Shown in pieces: positions 1-23,324 of a stretch of 23,324 bases of DNA. Origin of the DNA: a virus; IMG/VR virus record IMGVR_UViG_3300010160_000230, positions 1-23,324 of that record. The stretch is one strand, 5' to 3'. A model generated the notes under the pieces. The model saw only the letters and a list, made by a program, of their open reading frames with translations. It did no database searches and was not told where the DNA came from. The translations under genes and the position numbers were made by a program. Within the stretch, counting starts at the first letter, position 1. Every line of letters begins with the position of its first letter.

Positions 1-1346
1 ACCCTTTTAGAGTCTGAGTGTATTGTTAAAATATAACCCTGTTCACTTGGTGTTGTTGTTTCTTCGGAATAAATGTCTAATGCAGCGGAGATTTCTGGTG
101 TGTTGTGTGAAAATATCGTATCTGTCGCAAAGTTTTTATACCCTGGAACTGTTAAATCATAAACAGGTATAACCTCATAGGGTTCAATAGATTTTATTTT
201 ATGATTTATTTTTAAAGTTTCACCTGTTGCTTTTGCGTTAGCGTATTTATGCTTTTCAATACCATATGCATCTAAAAATGTCAACCAATCTCTATAACCA
301 TTATAAGTTATTTCTCTTTGTAATTTTGTGTGAGAAATATTTAATGCTTTTGCAGTACCTTTTAGTGTTTTAATTTTGGTAGCGGACTCAACAATGTTAT
401 CCCAAGGAATACTAAAATAACTTGGGTTATTTTTTCCTGCTCTAGTTCCGTTCCATTTATGTTTATTATCGGTTCTTTTACTTATTTCTAACATTTTAGA
501 CCTGTATTCAGGGTTTGACCACAATTTTTCGTTGTTTAATTTAGCATGATAAGCTCTATGTTCACCCCTGTCCATTATGACTAAATTTTCTGGGTTATTG
601 TTTTTTCCTTTAAAATCTATATGATGAACTTCTTCATTTTCATTTTTAGGTCTATAAAACCATTCAGCAATTAAATCGTGTTCAGGAACCCAACCATTTT
701 TACCTGACCCTAATTTTGGGTTACAAGTATAAACCCAATTATATTTTTGGTTATTGTAAAAAGATTTACGATAGAAAGGCATCATTGAGTCACCTTCTTT
801 TAAATCTTTTACTTTGGTAAAACTGCCATCCCTTTTCATCAAACGGTGTTCCCAAGTTGCAATCATAAATGAGTCATCATCAAAAGTGACTTTATAAGTC
901 ATTTCATCTCTTGTGTAGTGAGCATTTCTAGCTTTAGCCGGTACAACTTGTTTTAAGTTGTGGTCATACGCATAAGTAACAAACTCATAATCTCGACCTT
1001 TGTCAGCAAGTTCTTTAATAGTGATAAAACCATCTGGAGTTGCTATCTTTGTATCACCTGCAATGCAAAATTCCATGGCCTCATAATCCATGTAAGATGC
1101 AATTCTGGAGGTTTCATAGTAAACAGCTTTTTGGTATAACTCACTATCAACCCTTGCCCATTGTGCCTCAAGATAACCTTGTTGTTGAAGTTCTAACTTT
1201 TGTGTATTATACTCTTCTTTAGATTGAAAACTTAAAAGTTCTTTATCATTAAAGTTATATTTTGGTGGAGTTTTTAAACTGCCTTTATTTGGACCAAAAA
1301 GATAAAATAACTTTTGGTATACTGTTAAATCTTTATTTTCTGCCAT
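1..1346 (-). CDS. Portal protein precursor with intein (3' end outside window)
   Basis: Open reading frame from ATG at 1346 that runs off the left edge without a stop. The portal forms the dodecameric ring at the head vertex through which the terminase pumps DNA. The N-extein is 93 residues (MAENKDLTVYQKLFYLFG... ending YEAMEF). After a 322-residue intein the extein resumes with TPEISAALDIYSEE, which resembles the early conserved segment of T4 gp20-like portals ('hPEI..ALDIYs.E'). Only about 33 residues of the C-extein are visible. It lies 59 nt downstream of the terminase gene, the usual neighbour of a portal gene. A TATAAATATC element (GATATTTATA on the coding strand) at 1359-1368 may drive it. 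The portal assignment rests on the short extein motif plus context; the intein is very clear. Confidence 0.82.
   Translation of the reverse strand, partial: MAENKDLTVYQKLFYLFGPNKGSLKTPPKYNFNDKELLSFQSKEEYNTQKLELQQQGYLEAQWARVDSELYQKAVYYETSRIASYMDYEAMEFCIAGDTKIATPDGFITIKELADKGRDYEFVTYAYDHNLKQVVPAKARNAHYTRDEMTYKVTFDDDSFMIATWEHRLMKRDGSFTKVKDLKEGDSMMPFYRKSFYNNQKYNWVYTCNPKLGSGKNGWVPEHDLIAEWFYRPKNENEEVHHIDFKGKNNNPENLVIMDRGEHRAYHAKLNNEKLWSNPEYRSKMLEISKRTDNKHKWNGTRAGKNNPSYFSIPWDNIVESATKIKTLKGTAKALNISHTKLQREITYNGYRDWLTFLDAYGIEKHKYANAKATGETLKINHKIKSIEPYEVIPVYDLTVPGYKNFATDTIFSHNTPEISAALDIYSEETTTPSEQGYILTIHSDSKR
102..1067 (-). other. Intein with HNH homing endonuclease domain
   Basis: In-frame 322-residue insertion in the portal protein. 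It starts with Cys1 (CIAGDTKIATPDG, splicing block A). Block B is DDSFMIATWEHRL at about residues 64-76, with the T-x-x-H signature at T71-H74. Blocks F/G are VYDLTVPGYKNFATDTIFS then His321-Asn322, followed by Thr as the +1 extein nucleophile. All residues needed for protein splicing are present. In the middle, EEVHHIDFKGKNNNPENLVI (about residues 145-164) and a later HRAYH form an HNH nuclease motif, and ALNISHTKLQ (about 241-250) looks like a helix-turn-helix DNA-binding segment. It is therefore probably an active mobile element that homes into intein-less portal alleles. Confidence 0.93.
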
Positions 1347-1405: not shown

Positions 1406-3211
1406 CTAAGAACCTAATATTGATTTATTTTTGGTGTTATCCTTAAACCCAGACATACCGAAAAACACCCAATTATGTTCTGATATGGGAGCTTGTACAT
1501 GTCTAGATGTGTCTTTGTATGCCGGACTATTATAAACCATCTCTGGTATTGCATTAACCTCATTACTACTAACAATCCAAGAGTCTAACATCGCCTTTGC
1601 CTGACCTTTACTTTTTTCTAGATCTTTAAATGATGTTTGACTAACATAACAACACATTGCGATAGCCATTAAACAGTCATCATGATAATTTTTCATATGG
1701 TCAGGTCTACCATTTTTAAAGACAAAAGTATCCATTTCTGTTACCGACCTTATAGACCTAACTTTAAAGGAGTTCATTCGAACCGATTCTTCTAGTTTGG
1801 TGACGATAGTATTTCTATTTTTTTGAAAATTAAGTCCAGGTAATTTACCGTCACGCATATGCCTTTCCAAATTCTTATTATTAGTAACAGAATCAATACC
1901 CAACACAGTGTCGTAATACATTTTTTTTGGTGAGTAACCTAACTCAATCATTTTAAGTACGGTTGAAACACCGTAACCCCCTGTAGTATCGACAACGGTA
2001 AACGCTTCATACCTATTACCATATTCAACTGCAATCTCACCCAATGTATCGGGGGCAATTTTACCATGATATTCTGCAACTTGATTTCCTGTTGTAAAAT
2101 CATAAATACAGATTGAGGCGTAGTCATCTGCGGAACCTGAAGCCGCATCAGCGGATAAAATATATTCATGACCCAATTGAGGATCTTCCCAAATCCACAT
2201 ATTACCATCTAACCATTCAGTTCTGATTGGGTCTATGACATTATTTTTTCTTTGGTACTCAATATATTTGGTATCAATAACGTTATCACCAGAGCCATTG
2301 AAAGCACATAACAACTCCTGAGCAATGGTTCGAGGATTGTTATTTAACTGACCACACATCATTTCAAACCAAGGGGATGTCGGTATCCATCCTTCCGTCT
2401 CTAATTGTTCAAATTTTGGGTAATCCATTTCTTCTATTTCTTCAACAACATCCCCAGCATCATTCTTTTTTTGCCACCTCATACCAACATTATAACGAGG
2501 GTCTTGAAACCATCTCATCTCGACAATGTTAAAAGGGTTGTTAGTTTTTTCTTTAGTTTTTGCTGAAACGTATGTTTTATAATAAAGGGCGTCCATTCCG
2601 TTTGGTGTTGAAATTAATATTGCTCTACCACCTGTAGAAAGTGCGGGTTGAGCTGCCGCATAAACCTCTTCACCACCTTCAATATATGCTGCCTCATCCA
2701 TGACTAACAACGTTGGTGCATAACCACGTAACGCATCTAAAGATGTTGCAACCGCTTTAACTTCGGAACCGTTAGTTAATCTATAATGTTTGGCTGAATT
2801 TTTTTCTGCGTCAAACCAAGAATTACCACCGCTCCAAACATTCATCCAGCTTGGTAATTGAGAGGTAAAATCTTTTACTTTTTTTAGAAATTCAATTGCT
2901 GTTTCTTGTTTATTTGCCAAAATAAGAACCCTTTGTGGGTTGTTTGGGTCAGCAAATGCAGTAATAACCGCAATGTACGCGGCAGTTGTTGTAGAAACCC
3001 CCGCCTGACGTGGTTTCATCACAATATTAAAACGTTCTTTTGTGTATGAAGTAATTAACTCCCTTTGTTTTGGAAATAATTTAAACCTAACAAAACTTTT
3101 TTGTGTTTGGTCAAATGTTTCCAAAAAATTTTCAATAGCGTAAACTGGATCTTTGATACATTTACCTATTTCTAATAATTTTTGACTTTTACTTTGTGGT
3201 ATATCTGACAT
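1406..3211 (-). CDS. terL: Terminase large subunit (T4 gp17-like)
   Basis: 601-aa DNA-packaging motor. The N-terminal ATPase has an adenine-binding region LFPKQREL (45-52), Walker A KPRQAGVST (66-74), Walker B TLLVMDEAA (167-175, D172/E173) and coupling motif ILISTPNG (198-205). The C-terminal RNase H-like nuclease shows the expected acidic residues: SADAASGSADDYAS (D355 and D362/D363), TVVDTTGGYG (D408) and NYHDDCLMAIAM (D511/D512). Length matches T4-type large terminases (about 600 aa). The enzyme cuts concatemeric phage DNA and pumps it into the prohead through the portal encoded just downstream. The start at 3211 follows two GATATTTAT-type elements, at 3210-3218 and 3233-3242. No frameshift or missing motif was seen. 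Confidence 0.96.
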   Translation of the reverse strand: MSDIPQSKSQKLLEIGKCIKDPVYAIENFLETFDQTQKSFVRFKLFPKQRELITSYTKERFNIVMKPRQAGVSTTTAAYIAVITAFADPNNPQRVLILANKQETAIEFLKKVKDFTSQLPSWMNVWSGGNSWFDAEKNSAKHYRLTNGSEVKAVATSLDALRGYAPTLLVMDEAAYIEGGEEVYAAAQPALSTGGRAILISTPNGMDALYYKTYVSAKTKEKTNNPFNIVEMRWFQDPRYNVGMRWQKKNDAGDVVEEIEEMDYPKFEQLETEGWIPTSPWFEMMCGQLNNNPRTIAQELLCAFNGSGDNVIDTKYIEYQRKNNVIDPIRTEWLDGNMWIWEDPQLGHEYILSADAASGSADDYASICIYDFTTGNQVAEYHGKIAPDTLGEIAVEYGNRYEAFTVVDTTGGYGVSTVLKMIELGYSPKKMYYDTVLGIDSVTNNKNLERHMRDGKLPGLNFQKNRNTIVTKLEESVRMNSFKVRSIRSVTEMDTFVFKNGRPDHMKNYHDDCLMAIAMCCYVSQTSFKDLEKSKGQAKAMLDSWIVSSNEVNAIPEMVYNSPAYKDTSRHVQAPISEHNWVFFGMSGFKDNTKNKSILGS

Positions 3212-7907: not shown

Positions 7908-8301
7908 CGTAATTTAAAACCAAATCAATGGAATAAAGTTTTTCTTCCACCGATTTTTGGGTTTCCCCGAACTTAAAAACCAATCTTTCTTCAGGGTAAT
8001 CACCTTCATCTTCCAATTTTTCCCAGGCTAAGGCAATAATACCTTCAACTGCGTTATAAATTTGGAAAACCCCAGAATTCTGAATTAATTCTAAATTAAA
8101 TTCTGAAGTTTTTAAACTACCAACAAGCTTAACAAAACTGGTATCTGGTGTTAAATCATTTTTGTCATTAACAACTGAAGATTCATACCAAGATTCATCC
8201 CAATCCCAATTAGTTTTGTCGGAAAATAAAAACTCATATAAATTTTCTTCCTTATAATTTTTGCCAACGTGATTTATATATATTAAATACAAATCTTTCA
8301 T
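7885..8301 (-). CDS. Hypothetical protein, 138 aa
   Basis: Not recognised. Acidic soluble protein (MKDLYLIYINHVGKNYKEE...) with alternating hydrophobic segments such as DLYLIYINHVG and EEKLYSIDLVLNYDEF, and no signal peptide or TM helix. Its start codon shares one base with the stop of the 631-aa gene (TAATG), so translation is probably coupled. The three genes 631-138-578 appear to be a single unit, perhaps of interacting structural proteins. Confidence 0.75.
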   Translation of the reverse strand: MKDLYLIYINHVGKNYKEENLYEFLFSDKTNWDWDESWYESSVVNDKNDLTPDTSFVKLVGSLKTSEFNLELIQNSGVFQIYNAVEGIIALAWEKLEDEGDYPEERLVFKFGETQKSVEEKLYSIDLVLNYDEFKVRK

Positions 8302-10196
8302 TACTTCTTTTTGTATTTAGCTTTAGCAGGTTCTTCATCAGGATTTATACGTTCAGGTCTTTTGAAAGGATTTTTTTCTCTGGTTTTTTCCTTTTCTTTT
8401 TCTTTGGTTTTTTCCTTTTCTTTAGTTCCAGGGTTTTTCATTGATTCTAACATTGAGTCCATAATTCTTTTTCTTAAAGAATACTGAGAATTATCGGAAT
8501 AATCAACACCTTTCATAAAAGGTTCGTCAACTTCATTATTAGCCTCATTTCTATTAAAAACACCACGACCACCACAAGAGTTACAATTCGAATTTCTTCC
8601 ATTACAAACTGGACACTCCATATAATCTTCATCATAATGACGCATATAGTCTATTGATTCTTCAGTACCATAACCATAATCACCATATTCATCATATCTA
8701 GCTTTAGCAGGTTCTTCATCAGGATTTATACGTTCAGGTCTTTTGAAAGGATTTTTTTCTCTAGTTTTTTCCTTTTCTTTTTCTTTGGTTTTTTCCTTTT
8801 CTTTAGTTCCAGGGTTTTTCATCTCTAAATAATCCATGTAATCTTCATCGTGACGATACATATAATCTTCTTCTTCAGTTTCACCATTAGCAATCATATC
8901 TAATTCTTTGATATCAGTTTTCAATGTATCAATTTCTTCCTCATCATAAAAAATTGGGTCCCCCACATTTTCAATAGGAAAATGTTCAGGAATATCATTA
9001 ATGTCTATATTGTTTGAAATATATAAATCATACCCACCTTCAACTTTCTCTAATTCTCCAAAAGGACCTTGATTTGGTAAACCATGTGACATATAGTCAA
9101 CCCCATCTTCATCATCCAATATTAAATCAAACTTTTCATCACCTCTCATAACTTCAATTGGTTCAGTTTCATCGCCACCAATTCCGTTATTCATACCAGA
9201 AATAATTTCTTCTTTTTCTTCTTCTGTTAATTCATCCCAAGAAGTCATTTTTTCATTGGAACCCATATAATCTATCGAGTCGTATTCTTGATAAGATTGT
9301 CTGTTTCTTCCTCTGCCCATGAAATCAGATTCTTCATCGGAACTTTTGTTTTTCCCTTTTTTAATTGACCTGATAATATCTCTTTTATCATTAGAATCCA
9401 TGTTCTCTAGGTCTAAAGCAGAAATAACACTTTTGGCAACCCATTTCATGGTATCAGAAGCTAAATCTTTAGTATCTCTGATTTTTTGACCTAACTTACC
9501 CGTCATTCGTTGGATATCTTTAATAGGATCATCCTCTAAATCATAATCTTCATCATCTTCATCGAATTCTTCGGTATCTTCTTCTTCGGTATCTTCCTCA
9601 CCATCAAAATCAAGTTCTTCTTCTGTACCTTCTTCACCTTCTTCTGTACCTTCCCCACCTTCTTCTGTATCTTCTTCTTCCATATCTTCCTCACCACCAA
9701 AATCAAATTCTTCCCCACCTTCTTCTGTATCTTCCTCACCACCAAAATCAAATTCTTCTTCTGTACCTTCTTCTTCAGTTTCACCAGAATCATCACCAAA
9801 ATCAGTTTCTTCTTCAGGTGCTGGTGTACTTTTCTTTTTCTTAGATTTCAACACAAACCTTTTTTCTGTTATAGCATCCGGTGAAAGCATGTTGTTATTT
9901 TCCTGAATACCATAAGATCTGTTAAAATCTTCAAACATGATATTAAGTCTTCTACTAGCCTCTTCATACGATTGGTATTGATTTTTTGTTTTATTCCCCA
10001 AACCACCAATATATTCATAATTGATACCGTCGGTAGATTCTTTAATAAAGTATTTTCTATTTTCTCTTACAATACCGTAAATTTTACCACTAGGTGATTT
10101 TTTTCTTAATTCAACAGTGGAATTAGTTGTTTGTTCGTTAATAGGTTTTTTAATGCCCATTAAATCTATCATTCTTTTTAAGCTTTTGTTTGTCAT
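8301..10196 (-). CDS. Acidic repeat protein with DnaJ-type zinc-finger motif, 631 aa
   Basis: Unknown function. Order of features: an N-terminal segment of about 100 residues (MTNKSLKRMIDLMGI...), a highly acidic Glu/Asp/Thr/Gly repeat tract (about 122-220), a long acidic low-complexity middle with recurring (I/V)DYM or EDYM motifs, two near-identical 41-residue Lys/Glu-rich blocks (about 458-499 and 585-626), and between them CPVCNG plus CNSCGGRG (about 527-545), a four-cysteine site resembling half of a DnaJ zinc finger. It is likely largely disordered. Repeats are recent at DNA level. Scaffold- or assembly-type roles are conceivable given the position upstream of packaging genes, but unproven. 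Confidence 0.8.
   Translation of the reverse strand: MTNKSLKRMIDLMGIKKPINEQTTNSTVELRKKSPSGKIYGIVRENRKYFIKESTDGINYEYIGGLGNKTKNQYQSYEEASRRLNIMFEDFNRSYGIQENNNMLSPDAITEKRFVLKSKKKKSTPAPEEETDFGDDSGETEEEGTEEEFDFGGEEDTEEGGEEFDFGGEEDMEEEDTEEGGEGTEEGEEGTEEELDFDGEEDTEEEDTEEFDEDDEDYDLEDDPIKDIQRMTGKLGQKIRDTKDLASDTMKWVAKSVISALDLENMDSNDKRDIIRSIKKGKNKSSDEESDFMGRGRNRQSYQEYDSIDYMGSNEKMTSWDELTEEEKEEIISGMNNGIGGDETEPIEVMRGDEKFDLILDDEDGVDYMSHGLPNQGPFGELEKVEGGYDLYISNNIDINDIPEHFPIENVGDPIFYDEEEIDTLKTDIKELDMIANGETEEEDYMYRHDEDYMDYLEMKNPGTKEKEKTKEKEKEKTREKNPFKRPERINPDEEPAKARYDEYGDYGYGTEESIDYMRHYDEDYMECPVCNGRNSNCNSCGGRGVFNRNEANNEVDEPFMKGVDYSDNSQYSLRKRIMDSMLESMKNPGTKEKEKTKEKEKEKTREKNPFKRPERINPDEEPAKAKYKKK
8318..8441 (-). 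repeat. Direct repeat copy A (124 bp), C-terminal block
   Basis: Matches 8699-8822 at 123 of 124 positions, with a single difference at 8382/8763 that is a synonymous Thr codon change. It encodes the MKNPGTKEKEK...EEPAKA block at the very C-terminus of the 631-aa protein. Confidence 0.95.
8699..8822 (-). repeat. Direct repeat copy B (124 bp), internal block
   Basis: Second copy, offset by 381 bp (127 codons) so the frame is kept. Its near identity suggests recent duplication or ongoing gene conversion inside the 631-aa gene. Confidence 0.95.
9568..9780 (-). repeat. Imperfect tandem repeat encoding the acidic tract
   Basis: Repeated words such as ttcttctgtatcttc and tcaccaccaaaatcaaattc recur several times. 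They encode alternating EEDTEEGGE and FDFGGEED units. Prone to slippage and length variation. Confidence 0.8.
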
Positions 10197-11721: not shown

Positions 11722-12407
11722 CCCCCACCATTTTCCTTAGTTCCAGTTGCGTATTTAATGCCCATTATAGTACCGACAATTGAAAAAGCGTTGGTTAACA
11801 AAATACTAAACATATTTGACCAGGTTGAACCTATAATTTGAGTATCTTGCTTTGTATATAAAGCCATCATATACATAAGAGTGGTGATAACTCCAGCACT
11901 TAAAATCACCCAAATAGCCACTTTCACAATAATGGATGCCAATTCATTTTGTGTTTTTTTCTGTAACAAATCTAAATCGTTTTCAGCATTCTTTTTTGCC
12001 GATTCTGCCGTTATTCTAGCTTCTTCAGATTTAATCATTTCATTTTGAAGCTCAATCTGTATTTTTTCGTTTTCTTTTTTCCATTCTATTAATTCACGAT
12101 TCTGATTTTCAATCTGTAACTTTTGGTTTTCAGCCTCTTTTAATGTTGTTTGAAGTTCTTCCATTATTTTTTGGTTGGCTTCATTTAAATCGGAAAGTTC
12201 TTTATTTTGTTGTTGAACTTGTTTAGTGACATCTAAACGTTTTTTTCTTAACTCATTATCTTTTTGTTTACAGGTTTTTAAATACTCTTGAAAATCAACA
12301 TCGTCTTCACCATCAATAAGTTTAGTGATATTACCTTCTAAACCTACACCTTTTTTCCCTAAAAGGTCTATTAAGGCCTTTCTAGTAACTTTTTCTAGTT
12401 TTATCAT
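11718..12407 (-). CDS. Coiled-coil membrane protein coupled to the two-component system
   Basis: 229 aa, no known family. A short N-terminal domain (MIKLEKVTRKALIDLLGKKG..., 1-44) precedes a long coiled coil (about 45-157, rich in Gln, Glu, Lys and Asn). Two TM helices follow at about 158-183 (IIVKVAIWVILSAGVITTLM) and 199-219, with a Gly-rich tail, giving a cytoplasmic rod anchored in the membrane. Its ATG shares a base with the receiver gene's stop (TAATG at 12405-12409), so it should be made together with the response regulator. As the receiver has no output domain, this protein is an attractive candidate for the output partner or effector, for example acting on the membrane. That is inference from linkage. 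Confidence 0.82.
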   Translation of the reverse strand: MIKLEKVTRKALIDLLGKKGVGLEGNITKLIDGEDDVDFQEYLKTCKQKDNELRKKRLDVTKQVQQQNKELSDLNEANQKIMEELQTTLKEAENQKLQIENQNRELIEWKKENEKIQIELQNEMIKSEEARITAESAKKNAENDLDLLQKKTQNELASIIVKVAIWVILSAGVITTLMYMMALYTKQDTQIIGSTWSNMFSILLTNAFSIVGTIMGIKYATGTKENGGG

Positions 12408-12844
12408 TATTTATAAATTTTAAACGGTGATGTTCTATTTTTATAACCTTCATAGTCTTTTCTAAACTCCTCCAACCTAGGTTCAATATCATCTGATTTT
12501 ATAATCCAGAATTGAGCACCCGCTTGAACCGCTTTTACCTGTTCTTCGGATTCATTAGATGAAGAAATAATTCCTATGATAACATGATTACCGTATTGAA
12601 AATTAATTCTTCTAACTAGTTCTATCCCATCGAAGGAAGATCCAATAATATTTAAATCTATAAATACACATTCAGGTTTCTCATCAACATTTTTGCCTTC
12701 ATACCATTTTTTAAACATTTTTTCTGCATCATCCGCACTATTCACAGATTTTAAGGACAAACTAATATCCAATAAAGAGCAAGCGTCTTCAAAAACTAAA
12801 TGAAATAAATTTTCATCATCGACCAATAAAATAGAATCTATCAT
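12407..12844 (-). CDS. Stand-alone response regulator receiver (CheY-like)
   Basis: 145 aa, a single REC domain. Conserved residues: acidic pair D9-D10 (ILLVDDEN), phosphoacceptor D63 in CVFIDLNIIGSSFDGIEL, Ser at the end of beta 4 (GIISSSN, about 94-96), and Lys116 in FWIIKSDD. The phosphorylation site is therefore complete. Only about 20 residues follow the domain, so there is no DNA-binding output; signalling must go through a protein partner. It lies 7 nt downstream of the histidine kinase stop and overlaps the membrane protein start by one base. The likely phosphodonor is the adjacent kinase. It is similar in organisation to CheY/Rcp1-type single-domain regulators. Confidence 0.93.
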   Translation of the reverse strand: MIDSILLVDDENLFHLVFEDACSLLDISLSLKSVNSADDAEKMFKKWYEGKNVDEKPECVFIDLNIIGSSFDGIELVRRINFQYGNHVIIGIISSSNESEEQVKAVQAGAQFWIIKSDDIEPRLEEFRKDYEGYKNRTSPFKIYK

Positions 12845-12851
12845 AATGTTT

Positions 12852-14606
12852 TTATTTAAATTTGATTTTTATTTTAGTACCTATTTCATTTTTTTCACAG
12901 GTAACACTAAATTTATGTTCTTTAAGGATTGCCAAACAAATACTCAACCCCAAACCAGAACCAGTTTCATTCTGATATTTTTTTCTTATGTAAGGTTCAG
13001 ATAGTTTATTAAAATCTTCTTGTGATAATCCTCTGCCGTTATCTTGAATGATCATCATATCGTCTTCCATAAATATTTTAACAAATTTTGTATCACTATC
13101 ATTATATTTTAAACCATTTCTGATTAAATTATCTATAGCTGTACAAAATAAAGATTCGTTAACATCGATTGTTATCAAATCACTAATGATTACTTGTTGT
13201 CTATAAGATGTCATTAATAAATACTCGTTTAAAATTATTTTGAGGTCACAGTTTGTTTTTTCAAGGACAACGTCTTTTTTAACTAAATTTGTGAATTCAT
13301 AAACACCTTTATAAACTTTTTGGGTATGTTGTAACCCTTCTTTAATCATTTTTAAGGGTGATTCTAATTTTAATTCCTTAATAACGTTAGGTTTTAATCG
13401 TCTTTCTAAAGAAGTAACACCTCTTGGTATATAAATATTGATACCTGAATGCATATCATGTCTTAAAATTTTTGCTGCATGTTCTAGATATGTGTTTTTC
13501 TTTTCTATTTCTTTATTGGTTTTTATGATATCGGTAATATCTTGACGGATAGATGTAAAACCCTCTAACTTACCGTTTTCATCGAAGATGGCTCGAATAT
13601 AAGTATCAACATAATACAGTGAACCGTCTTTAGATTTATTAGTGACAACATCATTCCAAATTTCACCTTTTAAAACTTTTTTATACATATCGGCCCAATA
13701 TTTTTTTGTTTGTTGACCAGAATTAACGATTTTATGGTTTTTACCGATAAGTTCTTCTAATGAATACCCAGAAACTTCTATAAATTTTTCATTTACATAA
13801 ACTAACTTTCCTTTATCGTCTGTAGCGGATATCAAAGTTGCTTTATCGATAAAATCCTCACTTTCTTTTATTTTTTTTAATAAATTATTGGTGTTTTTAA
13901 TTGAATACGTAAAAGAGTAAAGAGAGGATAACATTTGTGCGAAATTTATTTCCGCGTTATTCCATTCTCGACGTTTTAGACTTTCAATACAAATGACACC
14001 AATGACCTCACCTTTATACATAATTGGAATATCTAACATAGAATTAATACCTAAAGGTTTTAAATAGTTTTCAGTAAAACAAGAAGTGGCTTTATGACCC
14101 AAAGCGTCATTTGCGACAATTATTGGGTTTGTTTTTAATGTATCGAAATATGGTTTACAATCTTTTTCAAACAATTCAAAACCTTGATACCAATTTTTTT
14201 CGGAATTAATGTAAAGTTGTTGACAAACAATAGAATCTTTTGTTTTACCATATAACCAAATAGAACATCTATCCGTATCAATGGATTCGGTGACTTCTTT
14301 GGTTAATAATTTGGTCACTTTATTTATACCACCTTCATAGAATATTGGGTTGTGTGATTGTTCTATTACTTTTTCATTTAATTTTTTTGCGTACTTACCC
14401 AATTCAAGACTTTTTTTAATTTTTTGATTGTATTCTTGAACCAAAGACCAGAAAATAACTGAAAAAGATAAAAAACAAAAATATTCAACACCACGAGTTA
14501 TGGGGGTTGGTGACATCACACCTAAAAATAATGTTGTTTTAATAATAAAAAATGTGGACATTACAAATACCACAAAACCTAATTTTATTTTAAAACTTAA
14601 TCCCAT
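12852..14606 (-). CDS. Membrane sensor histidine kinase (2 TM, GAF, PAS, HATPase)
   Basis: 584 aa. Two TM helices (about 9-31 and 39-59) with a very short outside loop, then a GAF domain (about 95-235; MLDIPIMYKGEVIGVICIES), a PAS domain (about 255-365; GKLVYVNEKFIEVSGYSLEELIG in two parts, ending GFTSIRQDITD), an H-box with phosphoacceptor H383 (ILRHDMHSGIN), N-box (TAIDNLIRNGLKYND, 489-503), G1 (DNGRG, 522-526) and G2 (GSGLGLS). All kinase motifs are intact. The small periplasmic loop suggests cytoplasmic or membrane signals sensed via GAF/PAS. The ATG at 14606 shares a base with the stop of the cell-wall enzyme gene (TAATG), and the receiver follows after 7 nt. A complete histidine kinase inside a phage late region is unusual. 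Confidence 0.94.
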   Translation of the reverse strand: MGLSFKIKLGFVVFVMSTFFIIKTTLFLGVMSPTPITRGVEYFCFLSFSVIFWSLVQEYNQKIKKSLELGKYAKKLNEKVIEQSHNPIFYEGGINKVTKLLTKEVTESIDTDRCSIWLYGKTKDSIVCQQLYINSEKNWYQGFELFEKDCKPYFDTLKTNPIIVANDALGHKATSCFTENYLKPLGINSMLDIPIMYKGEVIGVICIESLKRREWNNAEINFAQMLSSLYSFTYSIKNTNNLLKKIKESEDFIDKATLISATDDKGKLVYVNEKFIEVSGYSLEELIGKNHKIVNSGQQTKKYWADMYKKVLKGEIWNDVVTNKSKDGSLYYVDTYIRAIFDENGKLEGFTSIRQDITDIIKTNKEIEKKNTYLEHAAKILRHDMHSGINIYIPRGVTSLERRLKPNVIKELKLESPLKMIKEGLQHTQKVYKGVYEFTNLVKKDVVLEKTNCDLKIILNEYLLMTSYRQQVIISDLITIDVNESLFCTAIDNLIRNGLKYNDSDTKFVKIFMEDDMMIIQDNGRGLSQEDFNKLSEPYIRKKYQNETGSGLGLSICLAILKEHKFSVTCEKNEIGTKIKIKFK

Positions 14607-15411: not shown

Positions 15412-16209
15412 TCATTCGTAAATTTTAACGTAATTCACAAAAAATTCGGAATACTGCTCTGTTAGGTTAGACTCAAAACCGTGACGAACTCCGTTGTTTA
15501 AAATCACCATAAACTTTTTATCACGGAACCATTTTAACACATCTTCTGATGTTGTTTGTCTAACCAGATAACCATCATAATAAATTTTAATAAAATCTTT
15601 AGTTACCCAACAAGATAATTTAAGGTTTTCAAGTGGGTTTATTGGGTGACTTCTAGCACCAGAGGTTTCTTTATTTTCGGTAGTATTAAAATGTAAGTTA
15701 GATTCTAATCGAAATTTATAATCAGAATTTAAATCCGAATACGCTTCTATTACATCGATTTCTGGGGGCCATGTATCATAACACCCTAACCATACAGCTG
15801 GCCAAAGACCCACACCATATGGAAGCTGGATCTCAAACTCATAAAAACCATACCCAAAGGTTTTATATGTTGTAATTAAACCAACTGAATAAGGAATATC
15901 ATATGTTTTGTTGTCACCAGTAAACTTTTTGGGAGAATAAATTTGATTTAACACTAATTTATTGTTTCTAACTGAAACAGAATCAAACCCGTAATATTGG
16001 TTTGGAAAGTCAGGATGAAATAGTCCCCAGGGTTGACCAATTCTCCAATTGGAAGGATCTAACGAAGAAAATTCATCATCAAACACCAAAGACATTTTAC
16101 TTTTATCTGGTTCCTCATCCCCAAATTTCGTAACACCCAACAAAGATCTTATATATGATTTTATGTATAAAAAACTATTTACGACTTTATCTGTTAACGA
16201 TTCTGTCAT
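15412..16209 (-). CDS. Glycoside hydrolase family 16 enzyme
   Basis: 265 aa. Typical GH16 order: LVFDDEFSSLDPSNWRIG (41-58), YGFYEFEIQLPYGVGLWPAVWL (in two parts, 120-141) and the active site WPPEIDVIEAYS (147-158) with nucleophile E150, Asp152 and acid/base E155. GH16 enzymes cleave beta-1,3/1,4-glucans or galactans (laminarin, agar, carrageenan). The N-terminal 38 residues are not a clean signal peptide, so the protein probably stays in the cell until lysis or is virion-associated. Its ATG shares a base with the stop of the holin-like gene (TAATG). A role in degrading host capsule or algal polysaccharide at exit or entry is likely; substrate cannot be told from sequence. Confidence 0.92.
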   Translation of the reverse strand: MTESLTDKVVNSFLYIKSYIRSLLGVTKFGDEEPDKSKMSLVFDDEFSSLDPSNWRIGQPWGLFHPDFPNQYYGFDSVSVRNNKLVLNQIYSPKKFTGDNKTYDIPYSVGLITTYKTFGYGFYEFEIQLPYGVGLWPAVWLGCYDTWPPEIDVIEAYSDLNSDYKFRLESNLHFNTTENKETSGARSHPINPLENLKLSCWVTKDFIKIYYDGYLVRQTTSEDVLKWFRDKKFMVILNNGVRHGFESNLTEQYSEFFVNYVKIYE

Positions 16210-16609: not shown

Positions 16610-16822
16610 CTAATTAGATAAAGGTGCTTTAATACTTGGGTGTGATTGATAGTCTGGTGGTAGTTCCATCCATTCTTTTGATGAATAATTAAATATTGAA
16701 CCATCATTAGATTCTAATATAAATCTATGACTCGCTTTGAAACTTTCAATATCTGTCCATTCTGACAATTCAATATCTTTAATGATGTCACCAACTGGAT
16801 TTACTAATTTTAATCTAATCAT
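16610..16822 (-). CDS. Hypothetical protein, 70 aa
   Basis: MIRLKLVNPVGDIIKDIELS... a small soluble protein with a beta-rich start and Pro-rich end (ELPPDYQSHPSIKAPLSN). No family recognised. It lies 39 nt after thyX, starting with ATG at 16822 and preceded by GATATAAAG, which only loosely resembles the shared element. Confidence 0.65.
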   Translation of the reverse strand: MIRLKLVNPVGDIIKDIELSEWTDIESFKASHRFILESNDGSIFNYSSKEWMELPPDYQSHPSIKAPLSN

Positions 16823-16861: not shown

Positions 16862-17506
16862 TTACAAATCAAATGACTTTATTGTTAATTCAAAAGGATT
16901 TCCTTCAATATTTTTAACTAAATCCAACATCATCTGTGCGAGTTCTCTTGTTTCTTGTTGGGCGTCAGGTTTAATTCTTAAATGAAAAAGATGTATAAAT
17001 GATAATAAACTACCAGTCCAAATAAAACTTGTATTCAAATTGAGAGGTAAAATTGTTCTTGCTTGCTCTTTTGACACTCCAAGTTCAATTAATCTTTGAT
17101 ATGCGGTTTTACAATATCCAATAATGCCTGCTTCAATCTCAGATGCTGCTAATTGTTCTTCAATCGCCCCATCACTACCTTGTTTTGAGGATTTTGATTG
17201 TTTCCTCCATTCATCTATTGTTGAATAGGTGTCGCTAAAATCAACATATCTACCACTAATTGAATTAGCGCTTAATCCAACTTGGTGTTTGAATAATTGT
17301 CTCTCAACATAAATGGGACAAGTTATCCTGAACTGAAGTTGAGGATGTCTAAACGGAGATGTATGTCCGTGTTTAACCAAATAATTTATTAGTTTACCAT
17401 CTTTTTCTTCAAGTGTTAATACTTCTTTACCATAACTAACTCTTGCAACATTAACTATCATTAAATCATTCCCAAAATGTGATAGTAGTTCTACTTTATT
17501 ACTCAT
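16862..17506 (-). CDS. thyX: Flavin-dependent thymidylate synthase ThyX
   Basis: 214 aa, normal length for ThyX, which makes dTMP from dUMP using FAD and methylene-THF. HGHTSPFRH (46-54) is the conserved FAD/dUMP segment, YVERQLFKHQVGLSANSIS (in region 66-84) then GRYVDF is the signature region, and the C-terminal half is helical (LPLNLNTSFIWTGSLLSF, typical of ThyX). The usual RHR triplet reads KHQ here, and the signature seems one residue longer than the canonical RHRxxSxNxxSxRY. It supplies thymidylate for phage DNA synthesis. The start overlaps the end of the GIY-YIG gene by 8 nt (ATGAGTAA). Confidence 0.93.
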   Translation of the reverse strand: MSNKVELLSHFGNDLMIVNVARVSYGKEVLTLEEKDGKLINYLVKHGHTSPFRHPQLQFRITCPIYVERQLFKHQVGLSANSISGRYVDFSDTYSTIDEWRKQSKSSKQGSDGAIEEQLAASEIEAGIIGYCKTAYQRLIELGVSKEQARTILPLNLNTSFIWTGSLLSFIHLFHLRIKPDAQQETRELAQMMLDLVKNIEGNPFELTIKSFDL

Positions 17507-18284
17507 TTATTATAATTTTATATTTTTTAGAAATTATTTCACTGGCTTTGTTTTTAATTAACCTTCTTAACGAAGAATTACTAAGTGGGGAAATATTTGA
17601 TAATTTATTTATTGAATCCTCCTCCCAAATTTCATTTGTTAACAAATCAATAAGTTTACATTTTTTTGCGTTTTTTGTTGTTTTTCCTTTCCAATACCCC
17701 AATTTTTCTATTCTAGGGTCATCTTTTTTAGTTAAACCACTGTTCCATTTTTTAGTATTTAAAAGATTTATCATTCTTTTTTTCTTATGTTCTTCATCTT
17801 CTTTTTTTCCAAACATAGGGTTCTTTTCACCAATTTTACCGGTTCTTATTTTTTCAATCGTTTCTTTAGTATGTTTTTTACCTTTTATTTTTTCTATTCT
17901 TTTTTCAATAACTTCTTTTGTTTGTTTAAATCCTTTTTTCAATTTACTCATTCTGTTTTTTGCGTCTTCTGTATGTTTATACCCAAAAGAAGAATTAGAA
18001 TTGTGTGAGTTATTAAAACCTATTTCTCTATTATAACATTTTGTCATATCCATCCAAAATTGTTCTCTGTCTTTTAACTGATAACTTTCACAAATTTCAA
18101 TTATTTCAAAAGCAAATTCATCTTTTCCATATAAATCCCATGCATTTTGTAAATGAGGATTTCTGTGTGTTTTTTTATCTAAGGTATTCATATGTGTGTT
18201 CCATCTTCTTTCTATATTATTTGAAGAACCAATATAAATTTTATTATTTTTTTTACATATTATTTTATAAATCCCTGTTTTCAT
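17499..18284 (-). CDS. GIY-YIG homing endonuclease with NUMOD3-type repeats
   Basis: 261 aa from ATG at 18284 (MKTGIYKIICKKNNKIYIGS). Catalytic domain: GIY (4-6), YIG (17-19), Arg in IERRW (26-27) and Glu74 in DREQFWMD. Then DNA-binding repeats of the NUMOD3 kind: GYKHTEDAKNRMSKLKKG (101-118) and GKKHTKETIEKI...GEKNPMFGKK (135-161), and a C-terminal helix-turn-helix-like region. An in-frame ATG 54 nt further up (18338) is rejected because the GATATTTATA element would fall inside the gene and the extra residues are not GIY-YIG-like. Free-standing mobile gene whose last 8 nt overlap thyX; the likely homing site is in or near thyX. Confidence 0.92.
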   Translation of the reverse strand: MKTGIYKIICKKNNKIYIGSSNNIERRWNTHMNTLDKKTHRNPHLQNAWDLYGKDEFAFEIIEICESYQLKDREQFWMDMTKCYNREIGFNNSHNSNSSFGYKHTEDAKNRMSKLKKGFKQTKEVIEKRIEKIKGKKHTKETIEKIRTGKIGEKNPMFGKKEDEEHKKKRMINLLNTKKWNSGLTKKDDPRIEKLGYWKGKTTKNAKKCKLIDLLTNEIWEEDSINKLSNISPLSNSSLRRLIKNKASEIISKKYKIIINE

Positions 18285-19131: not shown

Positions 19132-19483
19132 TTATTGCCTCCTTTACTTGAATTGTATCAATATATGTTTTTAATAAGTTTGCCGCTCGTAGATTAGGTC
19201 TACCTCTCTCTACTGTAAATTTATATTTTTCGAAAAAATATTTCAGATTTTCAATATCTGATAATTCGGCACCAGGTAATGAAACTTCAGCATCTTTGTT
19301 ATCAAAAATCCAATCCTTTTGGTAAGGCAGGTCTTTATTTTCATCCTCTTTTAATAAATCTTTTAGCCGTTTAATTTCAGCGATTACATCATCACCTAAT
19401 TCGATTTTAGACATCACTGATAAGTTTATTACTTGAGATTCTAATACTTTGATTAGCTCGTCTTTTGCTTCTTCTTTATTCAT
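19115..19483 (-). CDS. Small array protein, 122 aa, helical
   Basis: MNKEEAKDELIKVLESQVIN... a mostly helical, charged sequence with no recognised domain. The start shares the ATGAATAA junction used across the array (8-nt overlap), while the end (AINEQLR*) uses the second junction type. It therefore marks the border between the two junction classes. Confidence 0.72.
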   Translation of the reverse strand: MNKEEAKDELIKVLESQVINLSVMSKIELGDDVIAEIKRLKDLLKEDENKDLPYQKDWIFDNKDAEVSLPGAELSDIENLKYFFEKYKFTVERGRPNLRAANLLKTYIDTIQVKEAINEQLR

Positions 19484-19841
19484 AACTTGTTATTGTTTTA
19501 TTGTTGTATGTTATTGTGATTAATTTGGTTGGGATGTTTAACCCGACATAATCAACTTTGAGTAAATCATCAAATGACTTGGCCTCACCTTCTTTCATAT
19601 AATGTTTACCATAATACTCCATTCGCTCTACTGTACTCAACTCCCTCTCCTCAATCTTTAATCCCCGCCTTTCAGAGAACTCTGTATCGGTTTTGCATTT
19701 GTTGATGAATCCACCTCTAGTTAATATCCCTTCCCCATTTAATATCGGTTTACCACTAACAGATGGAACCGCATTATCATAAAACCATTTAGTATATTCT
19801 TGACCAACCAACTCAATAAGACCTTCTTGTTCTTTATTCAT
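19476..19841 (-). CDS. MNKEQ-family cassette protein, 121 aa
   Basis: Canonical member of the array family: N-terminal MNKEQEGLIELVG, core KTDTEFSERRGLKIEERELS in mid-protein, C-terminal NIPTKLITITYNNKTITSYE. The stretches between these conserved blocks differ strongly from those of the paralogues. No known domain, TM helix or signal peptide. 8-nt overlaps (ATGAATAA) with the genes on both sides. Confidence 0.78.
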   Translation of the reverse strand: MNKEQEGLIELVGQEYTKWFYDNAVPSVSGKPILNGEGILTRGGFINKCKTDTEFSERRGLKIEERELSTVERMEYYGKHYMKEGEAKSFDDLLKVDYVGLNIPTKLITITYNNKTITSYE

Positions 19842-20229
19842 AACTTTCTATTGTTTTATCGTTGTATGTTATTGTGATTGCTCGTGTAGGACAATTTGGT
19901 CTCATACCAAAAAAAATATCAGAACCAGAATGTTCAAACCACATATTATTATCTTCAGAATAATAATAATAAGAATTACCATTTTTTTTCCACTTATTAT
20001 TTGGTTTAATATGTTTATAATAATATTCTACTATCTCATCATCACTCAACTCTCTTTCCTCAATCTTTAATCCCCAATATTCCCTAAAATCTTTATTGAA
20101 ATTAGATTCTTTCATGAATTCAGATTTTGTCATAACTTTTCTAACATAACCCTCAGGTCTATTATTTTCAATGGATTTAACGAAATTCTCATACGCCTCA
20201 TCTAATAATTCTTCTTGTTCTTTATTCAT
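19834..20229 (-). CDS. MNKEQ-family cassette protein, 131 aa
   Basis: MNKEQEELLDEAYENFVKSI at the N-terminus, core FREYWGLKIEERELSDDEIV, end CPTRAITITYNDKTIESYE. The longest canonical copy; its variable segment includes a Tyr/Asn/Lys-rich insert (KPNNKWKKNGNSYYYYSEDN). Overlaps both neighbours by 8 nt. Function unknown. Confidence 0.78.
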   Translation of the reverse strand: MNKEQEELLDEAYENFVKSIENNRPEGYVRKVMTKSEFMKESNFNKDFREYWGLKIEERELSDDEIVEYYYKHIKPNNKWKKNGNSYYYYSEDNNMWFEHSGSDIFFGMRPNCPTRAITITYNDKTIESYE

Positions 20230-20428
20230 TGCTTACTTTTTTAAATAATGGGAATCTACCGTGAGGGACTTGCCATTCTTTTCCTGTTTCAATATTTTTT
20301 AATAGGTGTTTATCATCACCTAAATTTTTTATATATTTCATTTCCGTTTGACTCCATTTACCAATAAACTCATCACCCTCAGATAATTCACATAATTTAA
20401 CGGCATTTTCTTCGTAATTATTTTTCAT
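20222..20428 (-). CDS. Orphan array protein, 68 aa
   Basis: MKNNYEENAVKLCELSEGDE... lacks the family core. Parts such as GDEFIGKWSQTEMKYIKN and LLKNIETGKEWQVPHG look like a small beta-barrel. Inserted between two canonical cassettes; its start uses the shared GTTATGA junction in a shifted position (11-nt overlap) and its end (SNE*) overlaps the next start by 8 nt. Confidence 0.7.
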   Translation of the reverse strand: MKNNYEENAVKLCELSEGDEFIGKWSQTEMKYIKNLGDDKHLLKNIETGKEWQVPHGRFPLFKKVSNE

Positions 20429-20771
20429 AACTCGTTATTGTTTTATCGTTGTATGTTATTGTGATTACTCTGCGTGGGATATTAAAATCATCTAAAAAGC
20501 GATGTGAAGGTAATGCCATTCTATCCCAAGGAAATTGTTTATCTTTTGGATAATAATCAAAACGGATACGCCACCTTTCTTCTTCACTTAACTCTCGTTC
20601 CTCAATCTTTAATCCCCACCTTTCAGAGAACTCTGTATCGGATTTACATTTGTCGATGAACATTTCTTTTGGTGATAATGTTCCATGAAATCCATGTCCC
20701 ATCATTATTTCAGTTTTGTTCTTATAATTCTCATACGCCTCATCCAATAATTCTTGTTGTTCTTTATTCAT
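20418..20771 (-). CDS. MNKEQ-family cassette protein, 117 aa
   Basis: MNKEQQELLDEAYENYKNKT, then a variable part, core KSDTEFSERWGLKIEERELS, second variable part (RIRFDYYPKDKQFPWDRMAL), end NIPRRVITITYNDKTITSYEK. One extra residue before the stop because the next gene starts MKNN (GAAAAATAA). The start overlaps the upstream 52-aa gene's TGA by 4 nt. Confidence 0.78.
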   Translation of the reverse strand: MNKEQQELLDEAYENYKNKTEIMMGHGFHGTLSPKEMFIDKCKSDTEFSERWGLKIEERELSEEERWRIRFDYYPKDKQFPWDRMALPSHRFLDDFNIPRRVITITYNDKTITSYEK

Positions 20772-20926
20772 AACTTTCTATTGTTTTTTATAAAAATAGG
20801 TTTGCCTTCCACATCAAATTCTTTGAATGATATAGGTAATTTCATTTCTAAAACTTTAATATAAGGGTAAAACATATATCCTCTATCAACATTACCTTTT
20901 TTACCAATTAAAATTTTATCATTCAT
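20768..20926 (-). CDS. Small orphan array protein, 52 aa
   Basis: ATG at 20926 (MNDKILIGKKGNVDRGYMFY) to TGA at 20768, ending IFIKNNRKL. The last bases, AAACAATAGAAAGTTATGA, are the usual junction DNA, normally read as TIESYE, but here in another frame so that it stops at TGA within ATGA. It overlaps the upstream gene by 8 nt (ATGAATGA) and the next by 4 nt. Without it there would be a 147-nt gap in an otherwise gapless array, which supports it as real. Confidence 0.72.
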   Translation of the reverse strand: MNDKILIGKKGNVDRGYMFYPYIKVLEMKLPISFKEFDVEGKPIFIKNNRKL

Positions 20927-21200
20927 AACTTTCTATTGTTTTATAACTATCAAATTTTAACCATACCTCATCTTCATTTAGATTTAGTATTGGGTAACAA
21001 TTAATTAAAGTACCTGATTCACATATTTGTTTATATTCAATATCTTCAGTGTAATCTGATTTTGGCATACTAAACCTATTATGTTTTTTTTGCCATTTAT
21101 AAAAAAATATCACATCTTGTTCTTCAGATAGAGGTATAATAAATTTTCTTTCATCATTATATCTACCCTCAAACCATTTTTCATTAATTTTTATTTTCAT
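20919..21200 (-). CDS. Array protein, 93 aa, hybrid ends
   Basis: MKIKINEKWFEGRYNDERKF... no GLKIEERELS core. Only the last residues, YKTIESYE, are shared with the MNKEQ family, so an unrelated body has the standard 3' junction. The start (MKIKIN) overlaps the upstream gene's end ESYENKN* by 17 nt. Function unknown. Confidence 0.72.
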   Translation of the reverse strand: MKIKINEKWFEGRYNDERKFIIPLSEEQDVIFFYKWQKKHNRFSMPKSDYTEDIEYKQICESGTLINCYPILNLNEDEVWLKFDSYKTIESYE

Positions 21201-21546
21201 AACTTTCTATTATAGTTTTTTTGTATGTTATTGTGATTAGTTTGGTTGGGATTTTATAAGGTGTGTTATCTACATTAGTAGGAACCATCATATTAGATAA
21301 AAGACCGTATTTTTCTTTCCATATTGGGAGAGCTATTTTATACCTTTCTTCCAAACTCAACTCTCGTTCTTCAACCTTTAATCCCCACTTTTCACTGAAC
21401 TCTGTATCGGTTTTGATTAATCTGATAAATTCTTCTTTGTTTGGAACATAGTATCCAGTGTAATCTTCTTTACCTGAATGTTCATTATACCACTTTTCAA
21501 AGTTCTCATAAGCCTCATCCAATAATTCTTGTTGTTCTTTATTCAT
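21184..21546 (-). CDS. MNKEQ-family cassette protein, 120 aa
   Basis: MNKEQQELLDEAYENFEKWY, core KTDTEFSEKWGLKVEERELS, end KIPTKLITITYKKTIIESYE plus NKN. The three-residue tail arises because the following gene starts with MKIKIN instead of MNKEQ, so the stop lies further on. Overlaps 8 nt upstream and 17 nt downstream. Confidence 0.78.
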   Translation of the reverse strand: MNKEQQELLDEAYENFEKWYNEHSGKEDYTGYYVPNKEEFIRLIKTDTEFSEKWGLKVEERELSLEERYKIALPIWKEKYGLLSNMMVPTNVDNTPYKIPTKLITITYKKTIIESYENKN

Positions 21547-21736
21547 AACTTTCTAATTTAATCATTGCAAAATATTCAAAATCTGATATAGCGAATTCTT
21601 CTGTTCTACCAGGTGTAGAATTTAGGTATTCAACAATCACCTTATCTTTTGTTACATCTTTAACAATCATTGATACAGGTGCCAATGACCCTAAATCTAA
21701 ATTGAATTCTTTCCCAATTAGTTCTTCTTTATTCAT
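21539..21736 (-). CDS. Array protein, 65 aa, hybrid ends
   Basis: Starts MNKEELIGKEFNLDLGSLAP and ends FAMIKLESYE, but the body is unrelated to the family and lacks the core. The middle (VSMIVKDVTKDKVIVEYL) is beta-rich, like a small Sm/SH3-type barrel. Overlaps both neighbours by 8 nt (ATGAATAA). Confidence 0.72.
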   Translation of the reverse strand: MNKEELIGKEFNLDLGSLAPVSMIVKDVTKDKVIVEYLNSTPGRTEEFAISDFEYFAMIKLESYE

Positions 21737-21935
21737 CTGTTCCTAAGTTTTTTAATCCTTTAATAGCCTCCTTATTAAACTCTAAGGCAAAATCTCGCTC
21801 AATCATATTGATAAGAGCCTGTTCAGCATCTAACTTTCCATTGGTAGTTGCCATTTCAATACAGTCATCATCAGTTTTTTCACCCCAAAACATCATATTT
21901 CGGAGTAATACATTTCCATCAATATTAATTTTCAT
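21729..21935 (-). CDS. Orphan array protein, 68 aa, helical
   Basis: MKINIDGNVLLRNMMFWGEK... helical and acidic, ending KGLKNLGTDE*. Shares no domain with the family; only its junctions fit: start in an 11-nt overlap (ESYEN*/MKIN), end in an 8-nt ATGAATAA overlap. Function unknown. Confidence 0.7.
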   Translation of the reverse strand: MKINIDGNVLLRNMMFWGEKTDDDCIEMATTNGKLDAEQALINMIERDFALEFNKEAIKGLKNLGTDE

Positions 21936-22479
21936 AACTTTCTATTGTTTTATCGTTGTAATTAATACCTATACGAGTATTCCCATCCTCAACTACCGTG
22001 TATATAGTAACACCCCATTGTTTGGCAAAGTCTGGGTTTGTTATTACCCTTCCGATGAATTCTTCTTGTGTTAAATAGAAAAAAGGTTGTTCGGCTTTAC
22101 CCTCTAAATAAGCATTTATTTGTCCTCTTTTATATTCTTTTGATGTAGGCTTAACATGGTCTAATATTGGATAACCCCAGCATTGGTCGTTATGCCCATT
22201 CGCTAATTCTTCGCCATTAAAATTATTCGGGTCAACTTCAAATTGTTTACACCAATTTTCATAAGCATCACCCAATAATCCTTGTTGTTCTTTATTCATA
22301 ACTTTATATTGGTTTTCTATTTCTTCCCATTCTTTATGCTCATTATCACCAACTAACTTATAATGTTTACCATCTTTTTCCCAAATACAATTCCAATTTT
22401 CTTTTATTTGTGGATTATCGGGGTATGCTCTACCTGATTGGTCATAATTCAGATTCCCTTTTTTGATTTTGTTATTCAT
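21925..22479 (-). CDS. Fused cassette protein, 184 aa
   Basis: Two cassettes read as one frame. Residues 1-60 (MNNKIKKGNLNYDQSG...EEIENQYKV) are an unrelated small unit; residue 61 is the Met of a family start (MNKEQQGLLGDAYENW, ATG at 22299). At this junction the usual GTTATGAATAAAG is read as V-M-N-K, so there is no stop. The second part keeps LTQEEFIGRVITNPDFAKQWG but lacks the EERELS core, and ends GINYNDKTIESYEN. The ATG at 22299 may also be used alone, giving a 124-residue protein. Confidence 0.75.
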   Translation of the reverse strand: MNNKIKKGNLNYDQSGRAYPDNPQIKENWNCIWEKDGKHYKLVGDNEHKEWEEIENQYKVMNKEQQGLLGDAYENWCKQFEVDPNNFNGEELANGHNDQCWGYPILDHVKPTSKEYKRGQINAYLEGKAEQPFFYLTQEEFIGRVITNPDFAKQWGVTIYTVVEDGNTRIGINYNDKTIESYEN

Positions 22480-22792
22480 AACTTTCTATTGTTTTATCGT
22501 TATATGTTATTGTGATTAGTTTGGTTGGGATACCCTCCTTATCTAATACATCGTCTACATCATCTATTTGATACTTAGTCTCTGCTAATTCATGTCTTTC
22601 GTCCCAAGTCAACTCCCGTTCTTCAATCTTTAATCCCCACGTTTTAGAGAAGTCTTTATCGGTTTTTATTTCTTCAATAAATTCTTCTTGAGATAAACAT
22701 TTATCTAATTCTTCGTGGATATAGCCTTCAACAAAAGCAATACGATAATTCTTATACACCTCATCCAATAATTCTTGTTGTTCTTTATTCAT
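22472..22792 (-). CDS. MNKEQ-family cassette protein, 106 aa
   Basis: The shortest canonical copy and close to the family minimum: MNKEQQELLDEVYKNYRIAF, LSQEEFIEEIKTDKDFSKTW, GLKIEERELTWDERHELAET, GIPTKLITITYNDKTIESYE. Useful as the reference member. Helical N-terminal two thirds, beta-like C-terminal strand. 8-nt overlaps on both sides. Confidence 0.8.
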   Translation of the reverse strand: MNKEQQELLDEVYKNYRIAFVEGYIHEELDKCLSQEEFIEEIKTDKDFSKTWGLKIEERELTWDERHELAETKYQIDDVDDVLDKEGIPTKLITITYNDKTIESYE

Positions 22793-23156
22793 AACTTTCT
22801 AATTTAGTATCGTTGTATGTTATTATGATTAGTTTGGTTGGAACATTATGTTTATCGCACATATAATTAGCAAAATCAAATTCTTCCATATTAGGTGTTA
22901 GGTCGGCTATCTTCCATCTTTCCATCATATCTAACTCTCGTTCCTCAATCTGTAATCTCCACTTTTCAGAGAACTCAGAATTAATTTTTATCATTTGAAT
23001 AAATGAATCTTTTGTTAAATGTTGAACCCCTGAGATTAATGGAGCATCACCCCATTTAGAATACTCACCATAATGATTCTTTTCATTAATTTTATGTGTG
23101 AGTCTTTTATAATTCTTATACGCCTCATCCAATAATTCATGTTGTTCCTTATTCAT
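22785..23156 (-). CDS. MNKEQ-family cassette protein, 123 aa
   Basis: MNKEQHELLDEAYKNYKRLT, variable insert (GEYSKWGDAPLISGVQHL), core FSEKWRLQIEERELDMMERW, end NVPTKLIIITYNDTKLESYE. More diverged core than the others (LQIEEREL). 8-nt overlaps on both sides. Function unknown. Confidence 0.78.
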   Translation of the reverse strand: MNKEQHELLDEAYKNYKRLTHKINEKNHYGEYSKWGDAPLISGVQHLTKDSFIQMIKINSEFSEKWRLQIEERELDMMERWKIADLTPNMEEFDFANYMCDKHNVPTKLIIITYNDTKLESYE

Positions 23157-23324
23157 AACTTTCTATTGTTTTATCGTTGTATGTTATTGTGATTAGTCGG
23201 GTTGGAATGTTTGCATCATCCAATTGTTTAATAGATGGTTTTGCTAATTTTCTACAATCAAATCCGTATTGTTCTTTAATATCATGTCTCTCTTCCAAAC
23301 TCAACTCTCGTTCTTCAATCTTTA
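23149..23324 (-). CDS. MNKEQ-family cassette protein, 5' part beyond window
   Basis: The last 58 codons of another canonical copy: it enters the window inside the core (KIEERELSLEERHDI) and ends NIPTRLITITYNDKTIESYE with TAA overlapping the next ATG by 8 nt. Shows that the array continues to the right of the window. Confidence 0.78.
   Translation of the reverse strand, partial: KIEERELSLEERHDIKEQYGFDCRKLAKPSIKQLDDANIPTRLITITYNDKTIESYE

Follow-up and report, generated by a model that had tools for sequence, protein, structure and literature searches.

Integron cassettes form arrays in which small genes are interchangeable and share a repeated joint; they have a folded attC site and an integrase. 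The promoter-early stem-loops (PeSLs) of phages consist of an early promoter combined with a stem-loop, and they are intergenic. Their role in mediating modular shuffling in T4-like phages was reportedly described by Arbiol in 2010 and Comeau in 2014. These short repeated regulatory elements are likewise linked to the shuffling of small genes between T4-like phages (PMC4503421). Another repeat, the Start-Associated Sequence (SAS) of Cluster K mycobacteriophages and Cluster EF Microbacterium phages, is an unusually conserved, asymmetric 13-bp repeat (GGGATAGGAGCCC) found before the ATGs of many unrelated genes, whose Shine-Dalgarno core pairs with the 16S rRNA; it typically lies 3–7 bp before the start, mostly after gaps of >50 bp, and about half of its copies have a 17-bp inverted repeat (ESAS) upstream (PMC3203893, PMC7302621). 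Overlaps of stop and start codons couple translation (PMC6728339), and in temperate E. coli phages the phage recombinases shuffle genes at short or diverged homology (PMC3945230).

The window considered here, i.e., the whole stretch of DNA that was analyzed, is a virus record of 23,324 bases and represents a 23-kb fragment. Its terminase gene (1406–3211, minus strand) is T4-like, with Flavobacterium phage immuto as the nearest relative (30% identity), and beside it lies a portal-like structural gene (3–1346, minus strand) that is apparently split by an HNH-type intein (CIAGDTKIATPDG ... FATDTIFSHN) and runs past the end of the window. The window also contains a low-complexity acidic ORF (8301–10196, minus strand) in which a segment of ~100 bases is repeated (about 8311–8430 and 8700–8820), a GAF-PAS histidine kinase with a neighboring receiver-like protein (12407–14606, minus strand), here carried by a phage, and a GH16 glycoside hydrolase (15412–16209). 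To the right of position 18355, up to the window end, small genes overlap one another on the minus strand. Many genes of this small-gene region are supplied by a paralogue family, referred to here as MNKEQ (pattern MNKEQQELLDEAYENY...WGLKIEEREL...IPTKLITITYNDKTIESYE), and the remainder are unrelated to it. Only weak hits, none above the curated cut-off, were obtained for the array proteins in Pfam and PHROGs, and no known RNA families or tRNAs were found. A second repeated C-terminus, ..KAPLSN and its variants, which is seen at 16610–16822 (minus strand) and in about 45 ORFs from relatives, came to our attention through a drifting profile of the MNKEQ family and is possibly another modular end.

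Between 19476 and 23324 (minus strand) the small overlapping genes form an array of cassettes whose joints are a word of about 17 letters, ACAATAGAAAGTTATGA, and its variants. This word is a fixed piece of DNA at which one small gene stops and the next one starts. Six exact copies are present at gene junctions of the window (19838–19854, 20768–20784, 20923–20939, 21932–21948, where the MKINIDG gene lies downstream, 22476–22492 and 23153–23169, all on the minus strand), and in each of them the ATG is the start of the next gene. Five of these copies are read as TIESYE (frame A) and the sixth, at 20768–20784, as NNRKL-TGA (frame C). Variants on the same strand, also read in frame A, are ATAATAGAAAGTTATGA (21197–21213; SYENKN), AAATTAGAAAGTTATGA (21543–21559 and 22789–22805; KLESYE) and two in which TAA stands in place of TAG, viz. 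ACAATAACAAGTTATGA (19480–19496; TITSYE) and ACAATAACGAGTTATGA (20425–20441; TITSYEK). In a further variant, CCAATATAAAGTTATGA (22296–22312, minus strand), the TAG has been lost (CCAATATAAAGTT) and the flanking cassettes are fused in frame into a single ORF (21925–22479, minus strand); in relatives the N-terminal part of this fusion stops at TAG or TAA and is followed by other genes, so the cassettes are separate there. The overlapping starts at 20229, 21736 and 19131 lack the word.

The copy read in frame C closes a 52-aa gene (20768–20926, minus strand), whose product ends in IKNNRKL-TGA; the closing bases, AAACAATAGAAAGTTATGA, are the same DNA that other copies read as TIESYE. The sequence thus confirms the original prediction that this gene ends as KNNRKL-stop within the exact word, and also that its product is unrelated, as only one relative, in the phage locus L010, was identified and none within the MNKEQ family. 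The two proteins are 65% identical over 49 residues, with a dN of 0.26 and a dS of 0.91, indicative of purifying selection, and because of this relative the ORF is most likely a genuine gene. The L010 relative ends with its contig at residue 49, inside the junction, and hence the natural C-terminus was not recovered from it. The stop TGA (20770–20768) and the ATG of the next gene (20771–20769), a MNKEQ-family cassette of 117 aa (20418–20771, minus strand), overlap as ATGA. Upstream lies a 93-aa gene (20919–21200, minus strand), joined to the 52-aa gene by the exact copy at 20923–20939. The 93-aa gene also occurs in L019 and L045, where other genes follow it at the same joint: in L019 a gene whose start resembles that of thymidylate synthase cassettes, and in L045 yet another gene.

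The reading of one DNA word in different frames is general. Among the ~306 distinct junctions that carry the word within 3 mismatches on 116 fetched phage loci, many of which were retrieved via the word itself and all of which are metagenomic assemblies, most have an upstream stop ending at one of three positions counted from the ATG, viz. +8 (TAA, frame A), −6 (TAG, frame B) or +4 (TGA, frame C). Frame A is the commonest by raw count; when each upstream cluster is counted once, 39 clusters use frame A, 37 frame B and 13 frame C, and six of the downstream clusters have upstream neighbors in every one of the three frames. When the word is taken together with its ATGARTAA start, all three frames are closed within −12 to +14 of the ATG at 248 of 306 junctions (81%), as against 235 of 1080 (22%) overlapping pairs that lack the word. 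There are also ten pairs in which one and the same upstream gene runs into the word in differing frames. One such pair, 96% identical, ends as PTYNNE-TIESYE in L120 and as PTFNNEK-stop in L089; another ends as ...IIENELNPK-TIESYE in L039 and as ...IIENELNPK-Q-stop in L112, the bases preceding the word being CCCCAAA and CCCAAA, respectively. The proposal that the DNA is kept when the peptide is not thus holds well beyond the single gene for which it was made, in ~90 upstream clusters. Since the word is carried by non-homologous junctions, the comparison indicates that the junction is retained as DNA, not as peptide; this conclusion does not draw on silent sites in the MNKEQ family. The original prediction was also right in looking to the nucleic acid for the reason, although a single case such as the 52-aa gene does not imply it.

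The frequency of the word also exceeds chance. The exact 17-mer was found in at least 119 stretches of IMG/VR and the same letters reversed in 3. In loci fetched by protein similarity only (L009–L084), mismatch counts for the 13 bases that precede the ATG in overlapping genes had two peaks, with many at 0–3, few at 4 and a broad peak above 6; therefore, the word is not just the low-mismatch extreme of ordinary start contexts. The higher-mismatch peak dominates in pairs without a MNKEQ neighbor, and of 665 such overlapping pairs 37 carry the 13-mer within 3 mismatches (1.8–4.4 expected) and nine carry it exactly (about 0.001 expected). The core tolerates substitutions at several positions. The word joins 136 upstream and 167 downstream clusters, and most of the flanking genes are not homologous; thymidylate synthase, metallophosphoesterases and an amidase are among the cassettes that follow it, most of which are without an assigned function. 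The 25-mer was not found in bacterial genomes, nor the MNKEQ family in cultured phages.

Several observations indicate that genes are exchanged at the word. More than one downstream partner is present in 35 of the 37 upstream clusters with at least two members, and more than one upstream partner in 46 of the 52 such downstream clusters. Of the ends of local DNA alignments, 15% are within −15 to +10 of the junction ATG, as against 3.3% for nearby random positions. Where the same upstream gene is followed by different genes, identity stays near 0.9 as far as +3 before falling to background; where it is the downstream gene that is shared, the rise comes at −13. Between contexts that are unrelated on both sides identity is mostly 0.86–1.0 inside the word and mostly 0.24–0.49 outside it, being near background beyond −16. 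The clearest case involves L018 and L061, whose flanks are 99.0% and 99.7% identical; L061 has an extra 901 bp at the junction, whereas L018 shows the joint there only once, as a shared 27-nt stretch (CAATGAATAAACAATAGAAAGTTATGAA). Word-bounded block differences were also seen at lower identity in six pairs (L115/L120, L200/L125, L010/L041, L032/L033, L126/L197 and L079/L164). Only 18 of the 114 clean insertions found are at the word, the others being elsewhere, some of them at other A-rich starts. In L040/L048, L073/L022, L019/L144 and L132/L048 clean insertions lie between other short repeats that contain a start codon (e.g., ATTTAAAAATTAAAAATAAAAAAAATATGA), which suggests that further start-region joints exist. 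Shared homology often reaches beyond the word, as would be left by homologous exchange. Locus ends fall at the word in only 3 cases, too few to be informative, and assembly chimaeras could mimic some of the exchange signals but not the frame changes or their breadth. Recombination homology, one of the reasons proposed earlier for conservation of the junction, thus receives direct support, and these comparisons provide good support for recombination at the joint.

Based upon these results, ACAATAGAAAGTTATGA, usually followed by ATGARTAA, is probably the joint of a mobile array of gene cassettes, which are exchanged via recombination between its copies. The word would end any upstream ORF, through TAG when the ORF shares the frame of the ATG, TGA when it is in the second frame and TAA, just past the ATG, when it is in the third, and as the word carries the ATG of the next gene, small genes could be joined in any frame with no fused product. 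Recombination between copies would lead to the gain, loss or replacement of cassettes, and each exchange would bring the word along, leaving the DNA constant but not the encoded peptide; the 52-aa gene would then be a cassette that by chance runs into the word in frame C. The exchange is likely to be homologous or annealing recombination by phage enzymes, a mechanism that is plausible because shuffling by phage recombinases at short or diverged homology is known (PMC3945230). Ribosomes terminating in the word may restart at its ATG.

The word works like SAS and PeSLs, but fits neither definition. As with SAS, it is a short asymmetric repeat right before the starts of differing families (306 junctions, 167 downstream clusters), and SAS may contain upstream stop codons, as the word does. 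However, the word (ACAATAGAAAGTT) has no AGGAG or GGAG, and Shine-Dalgarno motifs are rare in these loci (GGAGG/AGGAG in 1.5% of long ORF starts). In place of gaps of >50 bp, upstream stops here end −9 to +26 of the ATG, and the word directly abuts the ATG and overlaps the upstream gene. Unlike ESAS, there is no inverted repeat: identity is lost upstream of the word and RNA structure is lacking. The word also differs from SAS in closing all three frames and in being tied to cassette exchange. The likeness to PeSLs is that a repeat provides homology for gene shuffling, here on comparative evidence, whereas the word has no stem-loop, promoter excess or intergenic space, since the genes overlap. 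The exchangeable small genes and the recurring joint also recall integrons, but here the joint sits inside a coding overlap; no attC-like folded site was found at the word, and no integrase among the Pfam hits of the scanned genes of this fragmentary contig. What is new relative to SAS and PeSLs is a frame-independent, overlapping stop-start joint.

Of the other explanations considered, the one that survives best, although we consider it unlikely, is that the word serves translation alone, as a strong site of termination-reinitiation upheld by selection at every gene start, and plays no special role in recombination. It abuts the ATG, its stops at −6, +4 and +8 overlap or adjoin the start as in known termination-reinitiation overlaps that couple translation (PMC6728339), and the RNA is unstructured (z 0.05 at the site; five further junctions were essentially unstructured). 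Stops this near the ATG are consistent with termination-reinitiation, and a stop/start role of the word in translation, which the original prediction had listed, is plausible. However, ordinary overlaps of this kind are private to one pair of genes, whereas the word is common to many unrelated pairs and is read in three frames. Long ORFs of the fetched loci have A-rich starts with A preferred at −3, a positive determinant in Flavobacterium (PMC6847099), whereas the word has G at −3, unlike the ordinary start context of these phages. Further, exact identity over 13 bases is far tighter than initiation requires, the breakpoints of similarity are located at the word, and some array genes start without it. 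As A-rich, Shine-Dalgarno-poor starts are found in Bacteroidota (PMC6847099), the host probably belongs to that phylum. The same RNA folding results eliminate a hairpin at the junction, and a promoter or terminator role is also out, as such sites occur at junctions at chance level. RNA processing, another of the reasons suggested earlier, is without support.

It is very improbable that the repeated junction merely reflects recent tandem duplication of one family, with the 52-aa case a chance insertion or frameshift. The MNKEQ family alone gives many copies, and its conserved blocks are frozen at silent sites. In 90 family members the top codon has on average a share of about 0.91 at the junction, as compared with 0.93 in the C-terminal block and 0.84 in an interior block. 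At the junction Ser is AGT in 96% and Ile is ATA in 86%, vs. 28% elsewhere; in the block preceding it Leu is CTA in 96%, vs. 10% elsewhere, and interior-block codons are also strongly biased. Thus, the silent-site comparison proposed earlier does not set the junction apart within this family, and because other blocks are equally frozen it fails to separate function from shared descent, to which part of the conservation is due. The family's homogenization or recent spread contributes as well; in the window (19476–23304) and in relatives the segments between its frozen blocks vary in length and sequence, as if the blocks were exchanged or homogenized. Duplication alone is nevertheless excluded, because most of the flanking genes are not homologous; it is contradicted already by the word joining dissimilar genes in so many clusters and by the excess of matches outside the family, and genes ending in frames B and C cannot be derived by simple duplication from those ending in TIESYE.

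Slightly less probable still is that a phage endonuclease or site-specific recombinase drives the exchange by acting on the word as its target. A GIY-YIG endonuclease with NUMOD3 (17499–18284, minus strand) lies at the edge of the small-gene region, adjoining the array and a ThyX gene (16862–17506), and homing endonucleases are able to drive amplification of segments (PMC13096335). However, the genes of this fragment that were scanned did not include a recombinase, and neither the substitutions tolerated in the core nor the shared homology extending past the word favors such a target. Least probable is selection for a TIESYE C-terminal peptide with the other frames as decay, which can point to the prevalence of frame A and to L010, where IESYE is kept before the relative of the 52-aa gene with other codons (CCAATTGAATCTTATGA), but which we reject because the tail Ser codon is AGT or AGC in 150 of 151 cases (the lone TCN being that of L010) although TCN codons are the majority for Ser elsewhere in the MNKEQ family, and because frames B and C account for 50 of 89 upstream clusters.

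The frame-independent stop-start joint marking cassette exchange is real, general and for the most part accounted for. That its three stops are themselves under selection is plausible. We tentatively raise a stronger possibility, which falls somewhat short of being probable, that these 17–20 nt act as a universal gene adapter, selected for stops in three frames around one start, by which any small gene could be spliced in any frame into translationally coupled overlapping arrays by recombination alone, with neither integrase nor intergenic DNA. Caution is needed with short conserved C-terminal peptides such as TIESYE, as well as with certain apparent gene fusions of such phages, since these are by-products of the joint. 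The joint provides a testable answer to how phages build tight overlapping arrays of accessory genes from unrelated parts with their frames intact, and it unites two separate ideas, start-associated repeats and the recombination-driven shuffling of cassettes.
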